64,000 nt of DNA from Gemmataceae bacterium (lineage in GTDB: Bacteria; Planctomycetota; Planctomycetia; Gemmatales; Gemmataceae). Below are positions 45,681 through 53,022 of the stretch, one piece after another. Below the pieces are notes generated by a model. The model made no database searches, was not told where the DNA came from, and saw only the letters and a list, made by a program, of their open reading frames with translations. The stretch spans positions 1-64,000 of the forward strand of contig JAIEPT010000073.1 in assembly GCA_019748295.1 (NCBI GenBank), in the 5' to 3' direction. The position numbers and the translations under genes are program-made. Positions within the stretch are counted from its first letter, which is position 1; every line of letters begins with the position of its first letter.

Positions 45681-47003
45681 CTACTCGTGGCGGAGGGCTT
45701 CGATCGGGTCGAGGCGGGATGCCTTCATGGCGGGGTAAAGGCCGAAGAAGATGCCGACGGCGATCGAGGCGCCGGCGGAGATGAGGACGGGGCGTCGGCT
45801 GAAGAGGAACGGCACGTGGACGCCCCAGAAAAACTGGGACGCCCATGCAATCAGGTAGACGCCGCCGAACCCGACGAGGACGCCGATCGCTCCGCCTAGG
45901 GATGTTTGCGTGATCGCCTCGATGAGAAACTGGAAGGTGATGTCCTTCCGTTTGGCCCCGAGGGCGCGGCGGATGCCGATCTCGCGGGTGCGTTCGGTCA
46001 CGGTGGCGAGCATGATGTTCATGATGCCGATGCCGCCGACGAAAAGCGATATGCCGGCGATGAACGCGAGGAGCTGCAAGTAGCGGTCGCGGGCCCGTTC
46101 CGCTTCCTTGAGTCGCGCCAGCGGCACCGTGACGGCCCAATCCTTCCTCAGATGGCTCGTGCTGAGCATGTCCTCGATCGCCGCCCCGGCATCCAGCACC
46201 TTGTCGGTGTCTTCAACGGTGAGCGTTACCTGGTGCAGTTCGACCTTCTCGCCGCCGCGGGCGCCGGACTGGCGGATGAATACCGTTTCCCCGAACCGCG
46301 CCCGGCAGGTACGGAGGGGGATATAGACGTCGTTGTTGTAATCCTCTTGCAGGCCGCTCGAGCTCGTCAGCGCCATGCGGTCTTTCAGCACGCCGACCAC
46401 GATGAACTGGTGCTTGTTCAGGACAACGGTCTGCCCCACCGGCTTCTCGAAGGGGAACAGCATTTCGGCCACATTGGATCCAAGGACGCAGACGTTCCGC
46501 ATCGATCGGCTGTCGCCTTCGTCCTGGTCGTTGTCCGAATCGATCAGGAATCGACCGATCGCCAGTTCGATCTGATTGACCTTGTCGTAGTCTTGCGTGG
46601 TGCCGATCACCCTGCCCTGCTGCATGCGGTCGAGCCGGCGGATTTCCTGTGGAGCGATGATCCGCATGGGAACGCTGCGTACGACGCTTTCGATAAGCAG
46701 AAATTGGTCGTAATCGCGGTAGGTCAGCCCATAGTTGGCGATGAACGATCGCCGCTGGCTCGAGCCGTCGTCGGGCGGTTTGAGGCTGTTGACGATGACG
46801 TTGGTGGCGCCTTGCCGTTTGATGTCTTCGAGAGCGTCCTGCATGCTTCCTTCGCCGAACGCGGTCATCGAGATGACGGCGGCAACGCCGATGATGATGC
46901 CGAGCACGGAGAGAAAGGCGCGGAGCTTGTTGACCCAGAGGCTTCGCAGGGCGAGGACGAGCGTGCCGCGGGTTTTGTCCCACCAGACCCAGAAGTCTTT
47001 CAT
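45681..47003 (-). CDS. MacB/FtsX-family ABC transporter permease
   Basis: The 440-residue protein has an N-terminal membrane helix (ALRSLWVNKLRAFLSVLGIIIGVAAVI), a large periplasmic MacB_PCD domain, and three C-terminal helices ending GLYPAMKASRLDPIEALRHE, the FtsX signature. It belongs to the type VII/MacB mechanotransmission class. It overlaps the ATPase gene by four bases (ATGA) and is the last gene of the export operon. Substrate unknown; lipoprotein, peptide or antibiotic export are all possible. Confidence 0.92.
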   Translation of the reverse strand: MKDFWVWWDKTRGTLVLALRSLWVNKLRAFLSVLGIIIGVAAVISMTAFGEGSMQDALEDIKRQGATNVIVNSLKPPDDGSSQRRSFIANYGLTYRDYDQFLLIESVVRSVPMRIIAPQEIRRLDRMQQGRVIGTTQDYDKVNQIELAIGRFLIDSDNDQDEGDSRSMRNVCVLGSNVAEMLFPFEKPVGQTVVLNKHQFIVVGVLKDRMALTSSSGLQEDYNNDVYIPLRTCRARFGETVFIRQSGARGGEKVELHQVTLTVEDTDKVLDAGAAIEDMLSTSHLRKDWAVTVPLARLKEAERARDRYLQLLAFIAGISLFVGGIGIMNIMLATVTERTREIGIRRALGAKRKDITFQFLIEAITQTSLGGAIGVLVGFGGVYLIAWASQFFWGVHVPFLFSRRPVLISAGASIAVGIFFGLYPAMKASRLDPIEALRHE

Positions 47004-47779
47004 GCTGCCGCCTCCGCTTCTTCCTCGGCGAGGATCTCGCTCAGAGCCTGGAGGAATTCCTCATTCGCTTCGTGCGAGGGCTGAGTGCGTTCGATGTTCC
47101 GCACGTCGGTTTCCACATGCCCATCGCGCATGCGGACGACGCGTTTCGCCCAGGCGGCGATGTCGTTCTCGTGGGTCACCATGATGATGGTCTTCCCCGC
47201 GTCGTTGAGCTTCACCAGCATCTGCATGATGTCGTCGCTCGTCCGCGAATCGAGGTTGCCGGTGGGTTCGTCGGCGAGGATCACTTGCGGGCGATTGACG
47301 AGAGCGCGGGCGATGGCGACGCGTTGCTGCTGACCGCCCGAGAGTTGCATGGGTCGATGATCGAGCCGATCGCCCAGGCCAACCATTTCCGCGAGGCGAA
47401 CGCAACGGCGATGCGTCCGATCGTCGAGCCTGGCGTTCTGATAGAAGAGCGGCACCTGGATATTCTCGACGACCGTGTATTGCGGCAGCAAATTGTAGGA
47501 CTGAAAGATGAACCCGAGATACTTGCTGCGGATGTCGGAGAGCTGATCGTCGTCCATCTGCGAGACGTTTCGGCCCGCGAGGAAATAGTCGCCGCGGGTG
47601 GGCCGGTCGAGGCAGCCGAGCTGATTGAGCAACGTCGATTTGCCGGAACCGGAGGGCCCCATGAGTGCGACGAAATCGCCTTCATCCACGCGGAAGGTGA
47701 CGCCGCGCAAGGCACGGACGACGACCGACTCCAGGAAGTAGGTTTTCTCTAAATCGTAAGTTTCGACAACAGCGTTCAT
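47000..47779 (-). CDS. ABC transporter ATP-binding protein (MacB/LolD-type)
   Basis: The 259-residue ATPase has Walker [10 protein letters not shown], signature [15 protein letters not shown], Walker [13 protein letters not shown] and the H-loop TVTHE-like MVTHEND. LolD/MacB-type residues ([18 protein letters not shown]) agree. Its start codon is only three bases from the end of the inverted-repeat cassette described separately, so no native ribosome-binding site is visible; the preceding bases read GTGGTTAGTAA. The permease follows with a four-base overlap. The adaptor and TolC-like genes lie beyond the cassette. Confidence 0.94.
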
Positions 47780-47782
47780 TTA

Positions 47783-48275
47783 CTAACCACAGAGGCACAG
47801 AGGACACAGAGAAAGAGAAGAAAAAAAAGTGAACTAAAGGACCATTCTTTTGATTCCGTTCTTCAGCAAGGCAACGTTGAAGTTGATCAGAAGGCCCGTC
47901 CTGGTTTTGCAGAGTTTCAGATAGGTAAGCAATTGCGCTTCGTGAACCGGCATCAGTTTCTCGACAGCCTTGAGTTCCACAACGAGCCGTCCTGGAAAGC
48001 AGTAGTCCATCACAAGATCGTGATCTACAAGTTGAACACCTTTGTAGGCGATCGGAACCCGCTCCAAAGGGAGAAAATCCAATCCACGTGACCGCAGTTC
48101 GTGCGTCAAGCAGAATTGGTAGACCGACTCAAGCAACCCAGGCCCCATTTCACGATGCACTTCAATTGCTGCACCAATAACCGCCTCCGAGAGCGTATCC
48201 CGATGCTCCATGGCTTGATCCCTTCCGGCAGTTGCCGTCTGCCTTTCTCTGTGTCCTCTGTGCCTCTGCGGTTAG
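47783..48275. mobile_element. 493-bp cassette with 33-bp terminal inverted repeats carrying a GxxExxY gene
   Basis: Left end 47783-47815 (CTAACCACAGAGGCACAGAG and on) and right end 48243-48275 are inverted copies with 32 of 33 bases matching. The cassette contains one gene and sits nine bases beyond the adaptor's stop codon (48285) and three bases before the ATPase start (47779), inside one operon. No target-site duplication is evident and no transposase is present, so it may be moved in trans or by recombination between repeats. The terminal sequence is a repeat I recall from several genomes near GxxExxY genes. Confidence 0.75.
47834..48211 (-). CDS. GxxExxY family protein
   Basis: The 125-residue protein contains the signature GPGLLESVYQ (GxxExxY), ELRSRGLDFLPL, DYCFPGRLVVELKAVEKL and HEAQLLTYLKL, with FNVALLKNGIKR at the C-terminus. 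The family is a compact PD-(D/E)XK-nuclease-like fold: E in LLESVY, D in MDYCF, ELK in VVELKAV supply the expected catalytic set. Its biological role is not established. A GGAAGG site precedes the ATG. It is enclosed by 33-bp inverted repeats and placed between two subunits of one exporter. Confidence 0.93.
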   Translation of the reverse strand: MEHRDTLSEAVIGAAIEVHREMGPGLLESVYQFCLTHELRSRGLDFLPLERVPIAYKGVQLVDHDLVMDYCFPGRLVVELKAVEKLMPVHEAQLLTYLKLCKTRTGLLINFNVALLKNGIKRMVL

Positions 48276-48284
48276 CACATTTCA

Positions 48285-50354
48285 CTACGCTTTCGGGGCG
48301 CCCTTGAAGTTGGGACCGCCGACCGGAGGAATCGCGGGACCGCCGGGGGGGCCGCCGGGGGGGCCGCTGGGGGAGAAGGGACCACCAGTGGGCATGTCGG
48401 GGCCGCCTGGTGGGGGTCCGCCGCCCATGCCCTTCTTTTTGCCGCCGCCCTTTTGGATTGGGGTGCCTTCGGTATCCGCTCCTCGCGACTTGCCAGGGGT
48501 GCCGGGACGCATGTCGTTTTTGTCGCCGAGCAATGGCCGCGGGTTGAGAACGACCTTGTCGCCTTCTTCGAGGCCCGACTTCACTTCCACCATTTGATCG
48601 TTGCTCATTCCGACCACGATGTCGCGTTGCTTCGGCTGCTTCTGTTCGTCCAGGACGTAGACCTTGCGGCTCGCTCCCATGGAGATGGCGCCCACAACCG
48701 ACTGAATGGGTACGGTCAACACCGGGCCGCCGGATTCGTCCGCGAGGATGGTCACTTCGGCGCTCATGCCGGGCTTGAGGCTGTCCACGAGTCCATCCAT
48801 GGAGACCATCGTCTGATAGACCTTGACGTCGCTGGCCATGAAGTCGGCCTGGGATGCGACGGTCGCCACGGTCTTCACATGGCCCGAGTACATCTTCCCG
48901 GGGTAGGCGTCCACTTTCACGTATGCCTTTTGGCCTTGCTTCAAGGTGCGGAACTCAAGTTCCTTGAACGAATCGCGCTGGTCCTCGAAGATCATGATCT
49001 GCGAGGTCAGGTCGAGCGGATCGCGGAGGTGAATCATCGAAGCGCGAATCGCATCGGAAAAACCGGTCGGCTGCAGCACTTCGCCCTTGAGTCGGGACAC
49101 CATCGCCTCATGCACGCGGGCGGAAACGAGCATGCGAGCCAGGTTGGGAATGCGCATCAGCTTTTGGCCCTCGCGAACTGGTTCCCCCTGGGCCACGATC
49201 GATTGCTGCGAGCCGCTGCCGAATCGGCTCTGCTCCGCCACGAAGTAGACGACGAGCCCTTCCTGCGGCGAGTACAGGCTGCACTTGCGGATTTCTTCTT
49301 TGACTTCCCACTGGCGAGACTCTTCCTGCTCAAAGACGGCCTTCTTCGAATCGCGGTCCGCCATGGCTTGCACTTCCTTCGCCTTGGCCTGCACCTTCGT
49401 GCGTTCCAAGGCGCGATCCGCTTCCTTCACCTTGCTCCAAAGGTCGGTCACCGTGCGTTCGACGGTGTACTTCTTGAACAGGTCAAGTTCGCTGACTACT
49501 TTCTTGAGGTTGAAATCGGAACTGTCGAGGCGGGCCTTTTCCGCGTCCGCCTGGCTGCGGCTTAAGTAACCTTTGCCTACCATGCGGAGCGACCATGCGG
49601 CGCGATCGACCCATTGCTCGCGTTCGGAGCGGGCGATTTCGATGCGGCCTTCGATGTCGCTAAGCGTTTGCAGGATTTCGCTCGTGCTTACGTCGACTGC
49701 CGTCGTCTTGTTGACTTTTTCGATATCTCGCTTGATGTCGGCAACGAGCTGCGTTGCCACGTATTTCTGAAGTTCGGGACGTTCTTGGATCTTGAGTACC
49801 GTTTCCGCCGGCGTTTCGCCCAGGTACTTGCGAAGGTCGAGTTCCGTGAGAATCTTGGACGTCTTCGCCGTCTCGATTTCGCTGAAGTTTTGGCTTTGGA
49901 CGATGGACACGTTTTCCTCGGCCGAGACGAGCGCGGCCTTGGCCTGGTTCACCGTGTTGTTCTGGTTTTTGAGCTGCTCTTGAAGGCCCGAGTCGTCAAG
50001 TTGCACCAGCAATTGGCCCTTATCGACGCGCGTGCCGTCGTCGATTACCCATTTGATGGTGGTGGCAATCGTCGAGCCTTTTGCCCCCGCTTTCACGCGG
50101 CAAACGATGTCGCTGTTTTCCGCCGACTCCAAGGCGCCCCGTTCCACGATCAGGAACTGCAGCTTCTCTTTCTTCACCTCCCACAAGGGTCCGGAAAAGG
50201 GAGCCGCATAGCCGGAGACGTTGCGGAGGAAATACGCGCCGACACCGGCGGCGCCAATGAGAAGGACGAAAGCGGGGAGCAGCATTCGCCGCACGAAGCC
50301 GGGCGTGGGGCGATCAGCGGGGATCGAGGAAGGGGCTCGTGTTGGCGAATTCAT
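48285..50354 (-). CDS. HlyD/MacA-type periplasmic adaptor with Gly/Pro tail
   Basis: The 689-residue protein has one N-terminal membrane helix (MLLPAFVLLIGAAGVGAYFL), a barrel-sandwich lipoyl half (IVCRVKAGAKGSTI, VDKGQLLVQLDD), a very long coiled-coil hairpin (about 110-380) and beta-barrel and membrane-proximal domains (VTILADESGGPVLTVPIQSV). The C-terminal 60 residues are Gly/Pro/Lys-rich (GGGKKKGMGGGPPPGG). The start at 50354 overlaps the TolC-like gene by 41 bases; ATG 50285 is also possible. It couples the ABC permease to the outer-membrane channel. Two seven-G runs near the 3' end could be slippage-prone. Confidence 0.9.
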   Translation of the reverse strand: MNSPTRAPSSIPADRPTPGFVRRMLLPAFVLLIGAAGVGAYFLRNVSGYAAPFSGPLWEVKKEKLQFLIVERGALESAENSDIVCRVKAGAKGSTIATTIKWVIDDGTRVDKGQLLVQLDDSGLQEQLKNQNNTVNQAKAALVSAEENVSIVQSQNFSEIETAKTSKILTELDLRKYLGETPAETVLKIQERPELQKYVATQLVADIKRDIEKVNKTTAVDVSTSEILQTLSDIEGRIEIARSEREQWVDRAAWSLRMVGKGYLSRSQADAEKARLDSSDFNLKKVVSELDLFKKYTVERTVTDLWSKVKEADRALERTKVQAKAKEVQAMADRDSKKAVFEQEESRQWEVKEEIRKCSLYSPQEGLVVYFVAEQSRFGSGSQQSIVAQGEPVREGQKLMRIPNLARMLVSARVHEAMVSRLKGEVLQPTGFSDAIRASMIHLRDPLDLTSQIMIFEDQRDSFKELEFRTLKQGQKAYVKVDAYPGKMYSGHVKTVATVASQADFMASDVKVYQTMVSMDGLVDSLKPGMSAEVTILADESGGPVLTVPIQSVVGAISMGASRKVYVLDEQKQPKQRDIVVGMSNDQMVEVKSGLEEGDKVVLNPRPLLGDKNDMRPGTPGKSRGADTEGTPIQKGGGKKKGMGGGPPPGGPDMPTGGPFSPSGPPGGPPGGPAIPPVGGPNFKGAPKA

Positions 50355-53022
50355 CGATCCAAACTCCACGCGGATCCAGAGGGAGCAATTCCAAGTCGAG
50401 GTACATCTGCTGCCGAGCAATACGGTAATTGGTCCAACTCGTCAGCAACTGGGTCTGCACCTGCGGCAGCCGAGCGTAGGCGCCCAAGAGCTGCTGGGTG
50501 AGGGCTGCGGCCGAAGCCGCGTTGTTGCCGCTCACATTCGGTACTGGCGGCGCCCGGAACGTTTCGAGCGAGCTTTCCACCTGCTGAAACGCGAGTTCCA
50601 CGGCCTGCTGCTGAATGCGATAGGTTTTCGCAAGCACCTGCAGATTGCGGAGATCCACGCGAATCTGATTGGCGATCGTGTCTTCCAACGCCATCAGGTT
50701 TCGCCGGGACCGTTGGTACGCGATCAAGCTCGCTCGATACGCATTCCGTTCGGCCAAGCGAACGATCGGCGCCTGAAAGTTCAGGACCAGTTGATGCCGA
50801 GTATATTCGGGACGGAACGCAAGAGGCGTGTCTTTGGTAGGCGGCGTCGAACTATCCACACTATATCCAACATTGAACACCCCCAACAAGGCATTCGCCT
50901 GGATTCTAAGTTGCCGCCAGGTATCCACAACCGTTGCGCGAGCGTTCATGAGTTCCAGGCGATTGTCGATCGCATGCTTCGTGGCGGCGACATACGCTTC
51001 CTCCAAATCCCCTTCCGCTAAATCTTGAGACGACAAGATCACCGGCGGCAGCGACGGCCAGCGTGCTCGCAACGCATCGATGCGCTCGGTGCTCGCCTCG
51101 GTAAGCACATCCGCGAAGGCGCTGCGCGTGTCGCGGAAACGAGCCAAGTGTTCTTCCGCCTTCGCCTTTTCGGTCGCAAAGACGTTCCACGGCAACGATT
51201 CGTAGCGGCGAACGACCTGCTCAAGGATGGCGATGACCAGATCGTTTTCCGTGCGTCTCAACGCTTCGCGTTCCTGCGACGTGATCGCCTGTTCGTTTTG
51301 CTCCTTGTTGGCTCTCTGATCGAGCAGATCGTTCCGCGCCTTACGCAGCTTCGCGATGGCGGCCGTCAAGGTCTTATCGTCCACCTTGGCCTTGTCCCAC
51401 CGAGCCCAGCGATCAAGGATGCGGGCGCGGAAGTTCCGAGTGGACCGCGTCAGCGGCGAATCCGTCATTAGCTTCCCAAGTTCGCCTCGAAACTGAGGCG
51501 CCTTGTCGCGGGCATCGGCCCGATCAGCGAGTTTCAGCGTTTCCTCGAATTGCCGAATCGACGTTTCGAATTCCTGGAATTGCCGCATCAGCGGTTGCGT
51601 CGCCGAGTCTTCGAGTTCGATCGGAATATCCACGGGAATGCCGATCTGAAGCTTCAGGCGGTCCAGGGCGTTGCGCGATTCCTGCTCGCGCTGAAGCACG
51701 GTGGCGCGGGCCTGCAGGAGCTGACTCTGCACCTGACCGACCTGCAACGAGGAAACGTCCCCACCCCCCTCGTAGGCTTGGAACAGCCGAAAGATCTCCT
51801 CTAAGCGGGTCACATTTTGCTCTTCGACATCCACCAGCGCCTGCTTCAGCACCGAGGGCAGAAAACCTTCCGCCGTCGGCGTGGCGAACGTCGTCAGATC
51901 GAGGCGCGAAGCGTTGCTCGGCGAAAGCTGAAGCGTGGCCGGATTGGTCGTTCCGAACACGACGTTCCCTGGAACCAGCGCGACACCGGCCACGGCGGGA
52001 GTCGCTACCGGGGCGATCGTCCCGAGGCCGGAAATGTTCTGGAAAAATTCCTTGCGGAAGCGGGAGAAGAGCCGTATCTGGTACAAGAGGTTCCGCTCCG
52101 CCTGCGTCAGCGGCTCGAGCGTGACGGCCCGGCCGCCGCCGCGAAGGAGCGGTTGCACCAAATCCAGGTTAACGGCGCCTACGCTCGTTGTCTTGCCCGC
52201 ATTGACGCCGGAAAGATTGATGACCGTTTGATTGGCGTAGTTGAAGAGCAGCAAGGCCCCCGTGGAAAAGACCTGCGCTGCTCCGGCATTGCCGTTCAGC
52301 CGCCAACGCGAGCCTGCGCCGCCGTTGTTCTTGCCGGTTCGCTCCAGGTATGCGGTTTCCCTGAAAAACGCCTGCGGGCCAAGTCCGAAACTTTCGAAAG
52401 TCACCGGCAGAGCCGCAAGATACAAGTCCTCGCGCCGGCTCTGATATTCCCGGCTATTGACCAGACCGAGTTCGACCGCCTGTTCCAACGTGATGAGGTA
52501 GCCGCGGCAGGGCTTGATCTCTTTCGAGGCTTCCTTCGCCGGCTCCTCCCCCACGGCACGAGGCGGAGGCAGGTCGTCGGGCAATCTGTCCGGAACCTGC
52601 ATCGACGCCAACTGAAGGACGGGCGGTTCCTTCGTTTGCTTCACGAGGCTGATGAACTTCGGCTCCGCGCGATTCCGGCAGTCGAATGCCGTGAGCATAT
52701 CGATGTAGCCGGTCCCTTCGACGCGGGCGATGCCGGACTTGCGATAAGGCCTCTGCGGACTGGGCGACAGCACCTTTGCGGCCGGGTCGTCAGGCGGCAT
52801 GGGCGGGCGGTCGGGATTCGTCGGGTCAGCGAAGCGGGCGCGCGGATCAGGATAGACGTTGGCGTTTTCGATCTTCCAAAAAGGATAGACGTCTCGGTCG
52901 GCAAGCACCTCGTTGACCGCCTTGTCGGTCCGTTCGCGGAACCAGCGGCGCGTGCAGCCGGAACCCGACGCCCAGAGCGTCAAGGCGATGAGGAACAAAA
53001 AGTAGGGAAGGCGTAAACGCAT
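50314..53022 (-). CDS. TolC-like outer-membrane efflux lipoprotein, extended
   Basis: The 902-residue protein has a lipoprotein signal with Cys23 (LTLWASGSGC) and two outer-membrane-efflux domains: the last part (TVVDTWRQLRIQANALLGV, NAYRASLIAYQRSRRNLMAL) is typical. TolC proteins are usually 450-500 residues; here about 150 residues of charged helices (about 460-640, e.g. AAIAKLRKARNDLLDQRANK) sit in the middle and a Pro-rich segment at the N-terminus. It heads the export operon in front of the adaptor, ATPase and permease, so it should be their channel. A palindromic element lies about 160 bases upstream. Confidence 0.9.
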   Translation of the reverse strand: MRLRLPYFLFLIALTLWASGSGCTRRWFRERTDKAVNEVLADRDVYPFWKIENANVYPDPRARFADPTNPDRPPMPPDDPAAKVLSPSPQRPYRKSGIARVEGTGYIDMLTAFDCRNRAEPKFISLVKQTKEPPVLQLASMQVPDRLPDDLPPPRAVGEEPAKEASKEIKPCRGYLITLEQAVELGLVNSREYQSRREDLYLAALPVTFESFGLGPQAFFRETAYLERTGKNNGGAGSRWRLNGNAGAAQVFSTGALLLFNYANQTVINLSGVNAGKTTSVGAVNLDLVQPLLRGGGRAVTLEPLTQAERNLLYQIRLFSRFRKEFFQNISGLGTIAPVATPAVAGVALVPGNVVFGTTNPATLQLSPSNASRLDLTTFATPTAEGFLPSVLKQALVDVEEQNVTRLEEIFRLFQAYEGGGDVSSLQVGQVQSQLLQARATVLQREQESRNALDRLKLQIGIPVDIPIELEDSATQPLMRQFQEFETSIRQFEETLKLADRADARDKAPQFRGELGKLMTDSPLTRSTRNFRARILDRWARWDKAKVDDKTLTAAIAKLRKARNDLLDQRANKEQNEQAITSQEREALRRTENDLVIAILEQVVRRYESLPWNVFATEKAKAEEHLARFRDTRSAFADVLTEASTERIDALRARWPSLPPVILSSQDLAEGDLEEAYVAATKHAIDNRLELMNARATVVDTWRQLRIQANALLGVFNVGYSVDSSTPPTKDTPLAFRPEYTRHQLVLNFQAPIVRLAERNAYRASLIAYQRSRRNLMALEDTIANQIRVDLRNLQVLAKTYRIQQQAVELAFQQVESSLETFRAPPVPNVSGNNAASAAALTQQLLGAYARLPQVQTQLLTSWTNYRIARQQMYLDLELLPLDPRGVWIDEFANTSPFLDPR

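Follow-up and report, generated by a model that had tools for sequence, protein, structure and literature searches.

A PD-(D/E)XK nuclease gene between inverted triple repeats: a candidate counterpart of REPIN/RAYT elements on an unrelated enzyme

The exporter operon of a Gemmataceae bacterium is interrupted by a small cassette, in which a single gene for a GxxExxY protein is enclosed by two inward-facing copies of a terminal repeat, here called R. The same arrangement is found in bacteria and archaea, gene-less R–R pairs are scattered through the genomes concerned, and the number of repeats in a genome follows the presence of the gene. The cassette probably belongs to a REPIN/RAYT-like family of small elements of the form R–GxxExxY–R, in which a PD-(D/E)XK nuclease would bind, cut and help to copy its own ends. 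Whether these elements form a prokaryote-wide class of mobile DNA, with a small PD-(D/E)XK nuclease, a triple 7-mer, no transposase, cut- or nick-primed copying and no target duplication, is a question on which the arguments for and against appear evenly balanced. To our knowledge, no function is known for the GxxExxY proteins annotated throughout bacteria and archaea, and no origin for the short CACAGAG, CACGGAG and CACGAAG repeats that litter many genomes. If the two belong together, each explains the other: the repeats gain an enzyme, and the enzyme gains a substrate.

The features of the locus are listed in Table 1, with positions in the window, i.e., the whole stretch of 64,000 nucleotides that was analysed. 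The inverted arms (47778–47815 and 48243–48280) are 38 nt long, 92% complementary and separated by 427 nt, and their core matches in 32 of 33 positions. The only gene between them matches PF13366 (E=3.5e-36, 124.6 bits, cut-off 22), and its 125-aa product also matches TIGR04256 (E=1.2e-37, 128.8 bits, cut-off 35). Coordinates and profile matches thus bear out the initial annotation, made from the sequence alone, which had described 33-bp ends around one enclosed gene. Neither a transposase gene of a known class nor a partner gene is present within the cassette. No further copies of the arm repeat were found inside the window, nor were any found in shuffled windows. The cassette transcript folds far better than shuffled versions (z = -5.5), in agreement with the long stem around the nuclease-like gene that had been predicted for it.

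Table 1. Features of the cassette and of the surrounding exporter operon
Feature	Position	Strand	Remarks
MacB-type permease	45681..47003	-	remainder of exporter operon, outside the element; assigned by ORF reading
ATPase of MacB-type exporter	47000..47779	-	downstream host gene of the insertion
Whole cassette	47783..48275	-	one gene-bearing element, about 0.5 kb
Left terminal repeat R	47783..47815	+	CTAACC + 3x CACAGAG + AAAG, inward-facing
Left R units	47788-47794, 47796-47802, 47805-47811		CACAGAG
GxxExxY nuclease gene, 125 aa	47834..48211	-	PF13366 PDDEXK_3 / TIGR04256; D69, E79, K81, Q93 present
Right terminal repeat R	48243..48275	-	inverted copy, inward-facing
Right R units	48264-48270, 48256-48262, 48247-48253		outermost CGCAGAG (48264-48270), then CACAGAG twice
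MacA/HlyD-type adaptor	48285..50420	-	upstream host gene; true start probably inside ORF

The cassette has been inserted between two genes that normally lie close together. This follows from the gap between adaptor and ATPase genes, which is 505 bp here and usually -1 to 127 bp in same-family relatives with a reliable calculation (four unreliable loci were left out), and from the G+C content of the cassette, which at 48–53% lies about 10 points or more below the roughly 60–65% of the surrounding operon. Long gaps were also observed in two relatives, namely 334 bp in L188 and 613 bp in L197. The adaptor stop codon (48285–48287) and the ATPase start codon (47777–47779) lie a few bases beyond the arms, and reading of the sequence 5' of the ATPase ATG revealed no Shine–Dalgarno-like sequence. 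The initial annotation had read the locus in the same way, as an insertion that fits between the two codons, leaves the ATPase without a ribosome-binding site and separates exporter genes that are normally adjacent; in relatives, both genes mostly stand side by side. The cassette is accordingly no fixed component of this locus. The closest relatives of its GxxExxY gene occupy other genomic contexts, and the nearest relatives of the source genome belong to other genera. The pentamer AAATG occurs on both sides of the cassette (TAGTGAAATGTG before CTAACC, and TAAATGAAC after GGTTAG). A search for a target duplication, which had been proposed as a check, found none in general: at every length and offset, the matches in 62 cassettes and 133 gene-less pairs stay within what chance would give. 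AAATG was therefore rejected as a target-site duplication and is taken as a chance match.

The end sequence occurs 33 times in the source genome with up to three mismatches, while the reversed control pattern does not occur at all. Nearly all copies form gene-free inverted pairs with ACC outermost, and the distance within a pair ranges from tens of bp to about 150 bp; where R is single, its partner is usually decayed. Gene-less elements often match the right cassette end beyond R as well (AAAGGCAG). Among about 20 repeat loci there is one cassette, and of the only four PF13366 genes in this genome, R is present at the cassette gene alone. The R-less genes lie near contig ends (L009 on C343 and L011 on C255) or within a longer open frame (L012 on C364). 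Taken literally, the 33-bp repeat is found here mainly without a GxxExxY gene, a pattern that had been named in advance as speaking against a link between the two. The link nevertheless stands, because it is found again in about 14 phyla and, between genomes, goes with the presence of the gene, and an excess of gene-less pairs is what MITE- or REPIN-like derivatives predict. The cassette had been described as a possible non-autonomous mobile unit whose cargo aids its spread. An inserted, repeat-flanked cassette with a gene tied to repeat spread is retained from this description, and the term non-autonomous is not: the cassette is more aptly regarded as the gene-bearing form, with the short gene-less pairs elsewhere as the non-autonomous copies. 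The repeat ends are no local accident, and the GxxExxY gene is very probably tied to the spread of the repeat.

The anatomy was compared at 80 loci, fetched by GxxExxY protein similarity alone (alignment A1), which represent about 14 phyla and include archaeal loci. Almost all of them share a T-rich ACC end followed by three CRCNRAR units in 8–10 bp steps, facing inwards on both sides, in cassettes of mostly 0.42–0.75 kb. Runs of at least two inward units occur on both sides in 58/80 loci and on at least one side in 72/80. Within 300 bp of the genes, 137 triple units were counted in 47 kb, compared with 36 in 370 kb farther away; their density near the genes is about 30 times that at a distance of 0.3–3 kb. 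A motif-free finder returned scores of at least 5 for 99 of 156 loci and for none of the 156 shuffled ones. In relatives from the same class, an inverted-repeat test revealed the same anatomy with the units CGCAGAG, CACAGAT, CACGAAA, CACGAAG, CACGGAT, and ACAGGAT. The unit varies between elements (e.g., CACAGAG, CGCAAAG, CACGAAG, CACGGAT) and is constant within one element. Dispersed triple units are present in 49 of 50 cassette-bearing genomes (3,868 matches versus 77 for a reversed control), whose cassette ends recur in dozens to hundreds of scattered gene-less copies. In G086, the 2.3 Mb genome of a Methanosarcinales archaeon that contains locus L134, 250 triple-unit copies were found, mostly as tight inverted pairs and forming two families, CGCAGAG and CACAGAG.

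On the protein tree the phyla are intermixed (29 changes), which suggests horizontal spread of GxxExxY cassettes. Neither 50,697 phage records nor the PHROGs gave a match that would indicate a phage origin, eight GxxExxY relatives were found in 2.9 million viral contigs, and plasmid matches were few (7 records). Two of the eight viral loci, L176 and L183 on viral-classed IMG/VR contigs, carry R on both sides. Phages or plasmids may serve as carriers of the element between hosts.

The units of R have the properties of putative recognition sites. The six units in one cassette agree in 93% of positions, whereas those of different cassettes agree in 75%, and unit spacing is equal on both sides in 64 of 70 cases. 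When the two arms of a cassette are compared, the units agree in 94% and the spacers in only 50%, which argues for independent reading of DNA units by a protein rather than for a paired stem. The last unit base (G, A or T) changes 6 times on the protein tree, compared with 15.6 times when labels are shuffled (0 of 200 shuffles as low). The repeat type thus follows the protein clade, as far as this last base is concerned; the other unit positions change often, 17 to 22 times on the same tree. These patterns in the sequences strongly support a candidate recognition of R by the GxxExxY protein. In G032, which contains two GxxExxY genes, the R around the second one is of the CACAAAA type, and many dispersed copies of this type occur in the same genome.

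An AlphaFold2 model assigns the GxxExxY protein a PD-(D/E)XK fold with confidence (pLDDT 93). The nearest folds in the PDB are Cas4 SSO0001, MGME1, and lambda exonuclease, all with low similarity, and a search by sequence returned no homologue with a solved structure. In 149 proteins, D69 is conserved in 100%, E79 in 96% (D in 4%), K81 in 99%, and Q93 in 99%; E28 (99%) and Y31 (98%) are conserved to a similar degree. Close pairs have dN/dS values of 0.06–0.13 and are thus under purifying selection. From the near-invariant D, E, K, and Q, the fold and the low dN/dS, the protein is predicted to be an active nuclease, and should be one kept by selection. It has the fold and the D...ExK...QxxxY core in common with PD-(D/E)XK nucleases of the Cas4, RecB, and lambda exonuclease type. 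It differs from them as a 125-aa single domain with a TM-score of only about 0.5, with no conserved Fe-S cysteines in the alignment and no partner genes. Assignment to a defence family was considered and rejected, as PADLOC indicated only a weak resemblance to Cas4.

Repeat copy number was compared in 59 relatives. At least four repeats are found in 25 of 32 PF13366-bearing genomes and in 3 of 27 PF13366-less ones (p=2.5e-7), counted with a consensus that leaves some R types undetected and in genomes of which many are draft or metagenome-assembled. Two genomes were observed with repeats that match no gene of their own: G026 has abundant CGCAGAG repeats with no match to its two GxxExxY genes, and G125 (Thioalkalivibrio group, 2.1 Mb assembly) has 56 repeats in an assembly in which a PF13366 gene was not found. 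Either such repeats are remnants, or the assemblies lack the cognate gene.

In Thioalkalivibrio, at least 10 repeats are present in 7 of 9 gene-bearing and in 1 of 21 gene-less genomes. The exceptions G110 and G111 hold the gene, with repeats of the searched type absent. One site between two genes is filled by a cassette in 7 species and empty in 8, the best of these filled/empty comparisons being between species, at about 80% identity. At the empty sites, the flanking genes are joined directly or via a short unrelated sequence; the join in G122 (...CTGGGGTGATACAGGCCCTTCAATGG) may be compared with the sequence after the right R in ALJ16 (GGTAATACAGGCCCTTTAATGG). Three further intergenic sites contain gene-less elements in gene-bearing species, with varying R type and sometimes nested. 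G113 and G120, the two gene-less species comparable at all three of these orthologous sites, have nothing there, and at one of the three the gene-less G122 retains a degraded copy. Composite elements were also observed (e.g., G115:C3:1655-1899 and sites A–C of L303), in which an outer CACGAAG-type R pair surrounds an inner CACAGAG-type pair, at a distance of 20–26 bp, and many repeats of this pattern occur in Thioalkalivibrio genomes. The nesting suggests a preference for insertion into elements already in place.

Movement of the element is read from the filled and empty sites of different species, and we infer a mechanism of the following kind. The GxxExxY protein, possibly in oligomeric form, would bind the three units of R and would cut or nick there. 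Host repair or replication could then carry R-flanked DNA to new places between genes, by copying or by joining, and gene-less R–R pairs would be mobilised in trans. A possible route is priming from the nick combined with template switching, as proposed for RpnA. The joining step is left to host repair or replication because target duplication is absent and the enzyme has no known strand-transfer domain. We know of no chemistry by which a PD-(D/E)XK nuclease alone could join DNA.

The same repeats could in principle arise in other ways. If the R–R pairs were ordinary MITEs, moved by a Y1 (RAYT-like) or another transposase, the GxxExxY gene might have been caught between two ends by accident. 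The large excess of gene-less pairs over cassettes would fit, as would the Y1_Tnp genes found in all 25 repeat-rich gene-bearing relatives. However, among Y1-bearing genomes, 25 of 30 with GxxExxY are repeat-rich and only 2 of 16 without it, whereas in GxxExxY-less genomes the presence of Y1 makes little difference (2/16 repeat-rich with Y1, 1/11 without). Inward R on both sides was found at none of 30 Y1_Tnp loci and at 21 of 59 GxxExxY loci of the same genomes. An accidental capture would also have to recur in about 14 phyla with different units whose type follows the protein tree, and the target duplication that marks most IS-derived MITEs is lacking. As R follows GxxExxY and not Y1, a Y1 transposase or RAYT as sole mover is not supported, and capture of a bystander gene is improbable. 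A Y1 transposase may still have a helping role, since all 25 of the relatives mentioned contain one. The variety of R types at old sites raises a further alternative, in which the nuclease cuts R-like sequences and repair copies the resident element into old, related sites, similar to homing or gene conversion. Three cassette lineages (about 50–68% identical) with three R types at one Thioalkalivibrio site would be expected from such replacement, and so would the different R types, nested in each other, at the same three intergenic places. As some of these places in gene-less species are empty and show no trace of R, new sites must also be gained, and homing of this kind is unlikely.

A role in regulation or self-recognition would make GxxExxY a defence or toxin-like nuclease and R its operator or protective site, with dispersed copies as decoys or marks and their spread as a by-product of recombination. 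Defence systems often contain PD-(D/E)XK nucleases, the Cas4 profile is weakly matched, GxxExxY is under purifying selection, and Rpn, once seen as mobilising, is now reported to be an anti-phage toxin-antitoxin system (PMC10327210). An operator would hardly be expected in inverted form downstream of most genes as well, the dispersed copies come in inverted pairs, as at the cassette ends, instead of standing singly, and the cassette includes no partner gene, so that such a role appears quite improbable. Finally, the R–R hairpin might act as RNA and be processed by GxxExxY in the manner of tRNA-splicing endonucleases, which have a related fold and are weakly present in the fold search. The stable folding of the transcript and the inverted repeat in every element would agree with this, but the spacers, which a paired stem would need, differ between the arms, and the cassette RNA has no Rfam match. 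Processing at the RNA level is accordingly very unlikely. The preferred reading is still that of elements mobilised by their own nuclease.

REPINs and RAYTs (REPtrons) combine REP doublets with IS200/IS605-like Y1 HUH transposases (PMC3116915, PMC3733652). The R elements resemble them in a dedicated, repeat-flanked nuclease gene, gene-less inverted pairs scattered over intergenic regions, an enzyme and a repeat that co-evolve, and horizontal spread. The enzyme, however, is a PD-(D/E)XK nuclease in place of a Y1 HUH transposase beside the repeat, and R consists of ACC and three direct units with neither a hairpin of its own nor a GTAG tag, whereas REP is a GTAG-tagged palindrome. Terminal inverted repeats, gene-bearing and gene-less forms, and nested insertions are features shared with IS elements and MITEs of the DDE type, from which the R elements differ by the absence of a DDE transposase and of target duplications. 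The only prior suggestion found of MITEs descending from an element with a PD-(D/E)XK gene concerns the hupL MITE family of Candidatus Thiomargarita nelsonii, for which an origin from PD-(D/E)XK_2 genes (PF12784/TIGR01784) was proposed (PMC4853749). That family involves another protein family, a 19-bp inverted repeat and a 10-bp direct repeat at the ends, and is described from one organism. RpnA (Rpn/YhgA-like) is a PD-(D/E)XK nuclease that promotes RecA-independent recombination, for which a template-switch model was put forward (PMC5350276). It belongs to a different family and is a non-specific nuclease, and inverted repeats are not mentioned in that work. A literature search, outside of which most subscription journals lay, found no relevant work on the repeats or on GxxExxY/PF13366, and no mention of GxxExxY together with repeats.

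The enzyme class, the ends and the presumed way of moving belong to no described class; strictly, the elements could be regarded as a variant of the REPIN kind. They appear to be an independent parallel to the REPIN/RAYT mobile repeats, with an unrelated enzyme as their basis. If this is true, the REPIN/RAYT way of life has a second, unrelated solution, and a very small nuclease has a modular target of three equal units that co-vary with the protein, whose recognition is directly testable. In environmental genomes, many intergenic palindromic repeats, and points at which assemblies break, may likewise be due to such elements.

Some further observations concern the assembly of the source genome. 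At six contig ends (C155, C64, C61, C322, C312, and C374), a common sequence is joined directly to R. It occupies the first 50–60 bases of L015, L017, L026, and L030 and the ends of L025 and L031, and its reverse complement is GTGCGCCGTGCAAAGGCGCTGGTTTTCAGTGGGTGCGAATCCCACCCGGCAGCTTGGTCA. By eye, this sequence resembles the 3' half of a tRNA-Cys, with the GCA anticodon stem-loop and the T-arm; ARAGORN called no tRNA. These contig ends may be assembly chimeras formed at the repeat, or a tRNA gene may really have received an insertion. The R–R loops of L013, L026, L030, and L033 contain other palindromic repeats (CCCAGGGGCGAGCGTAGCGAGCTCCTGGG, and GATCGGAGATCGGAGAATGAAGAATG with its complement), as if several repeat families were nested in one another.
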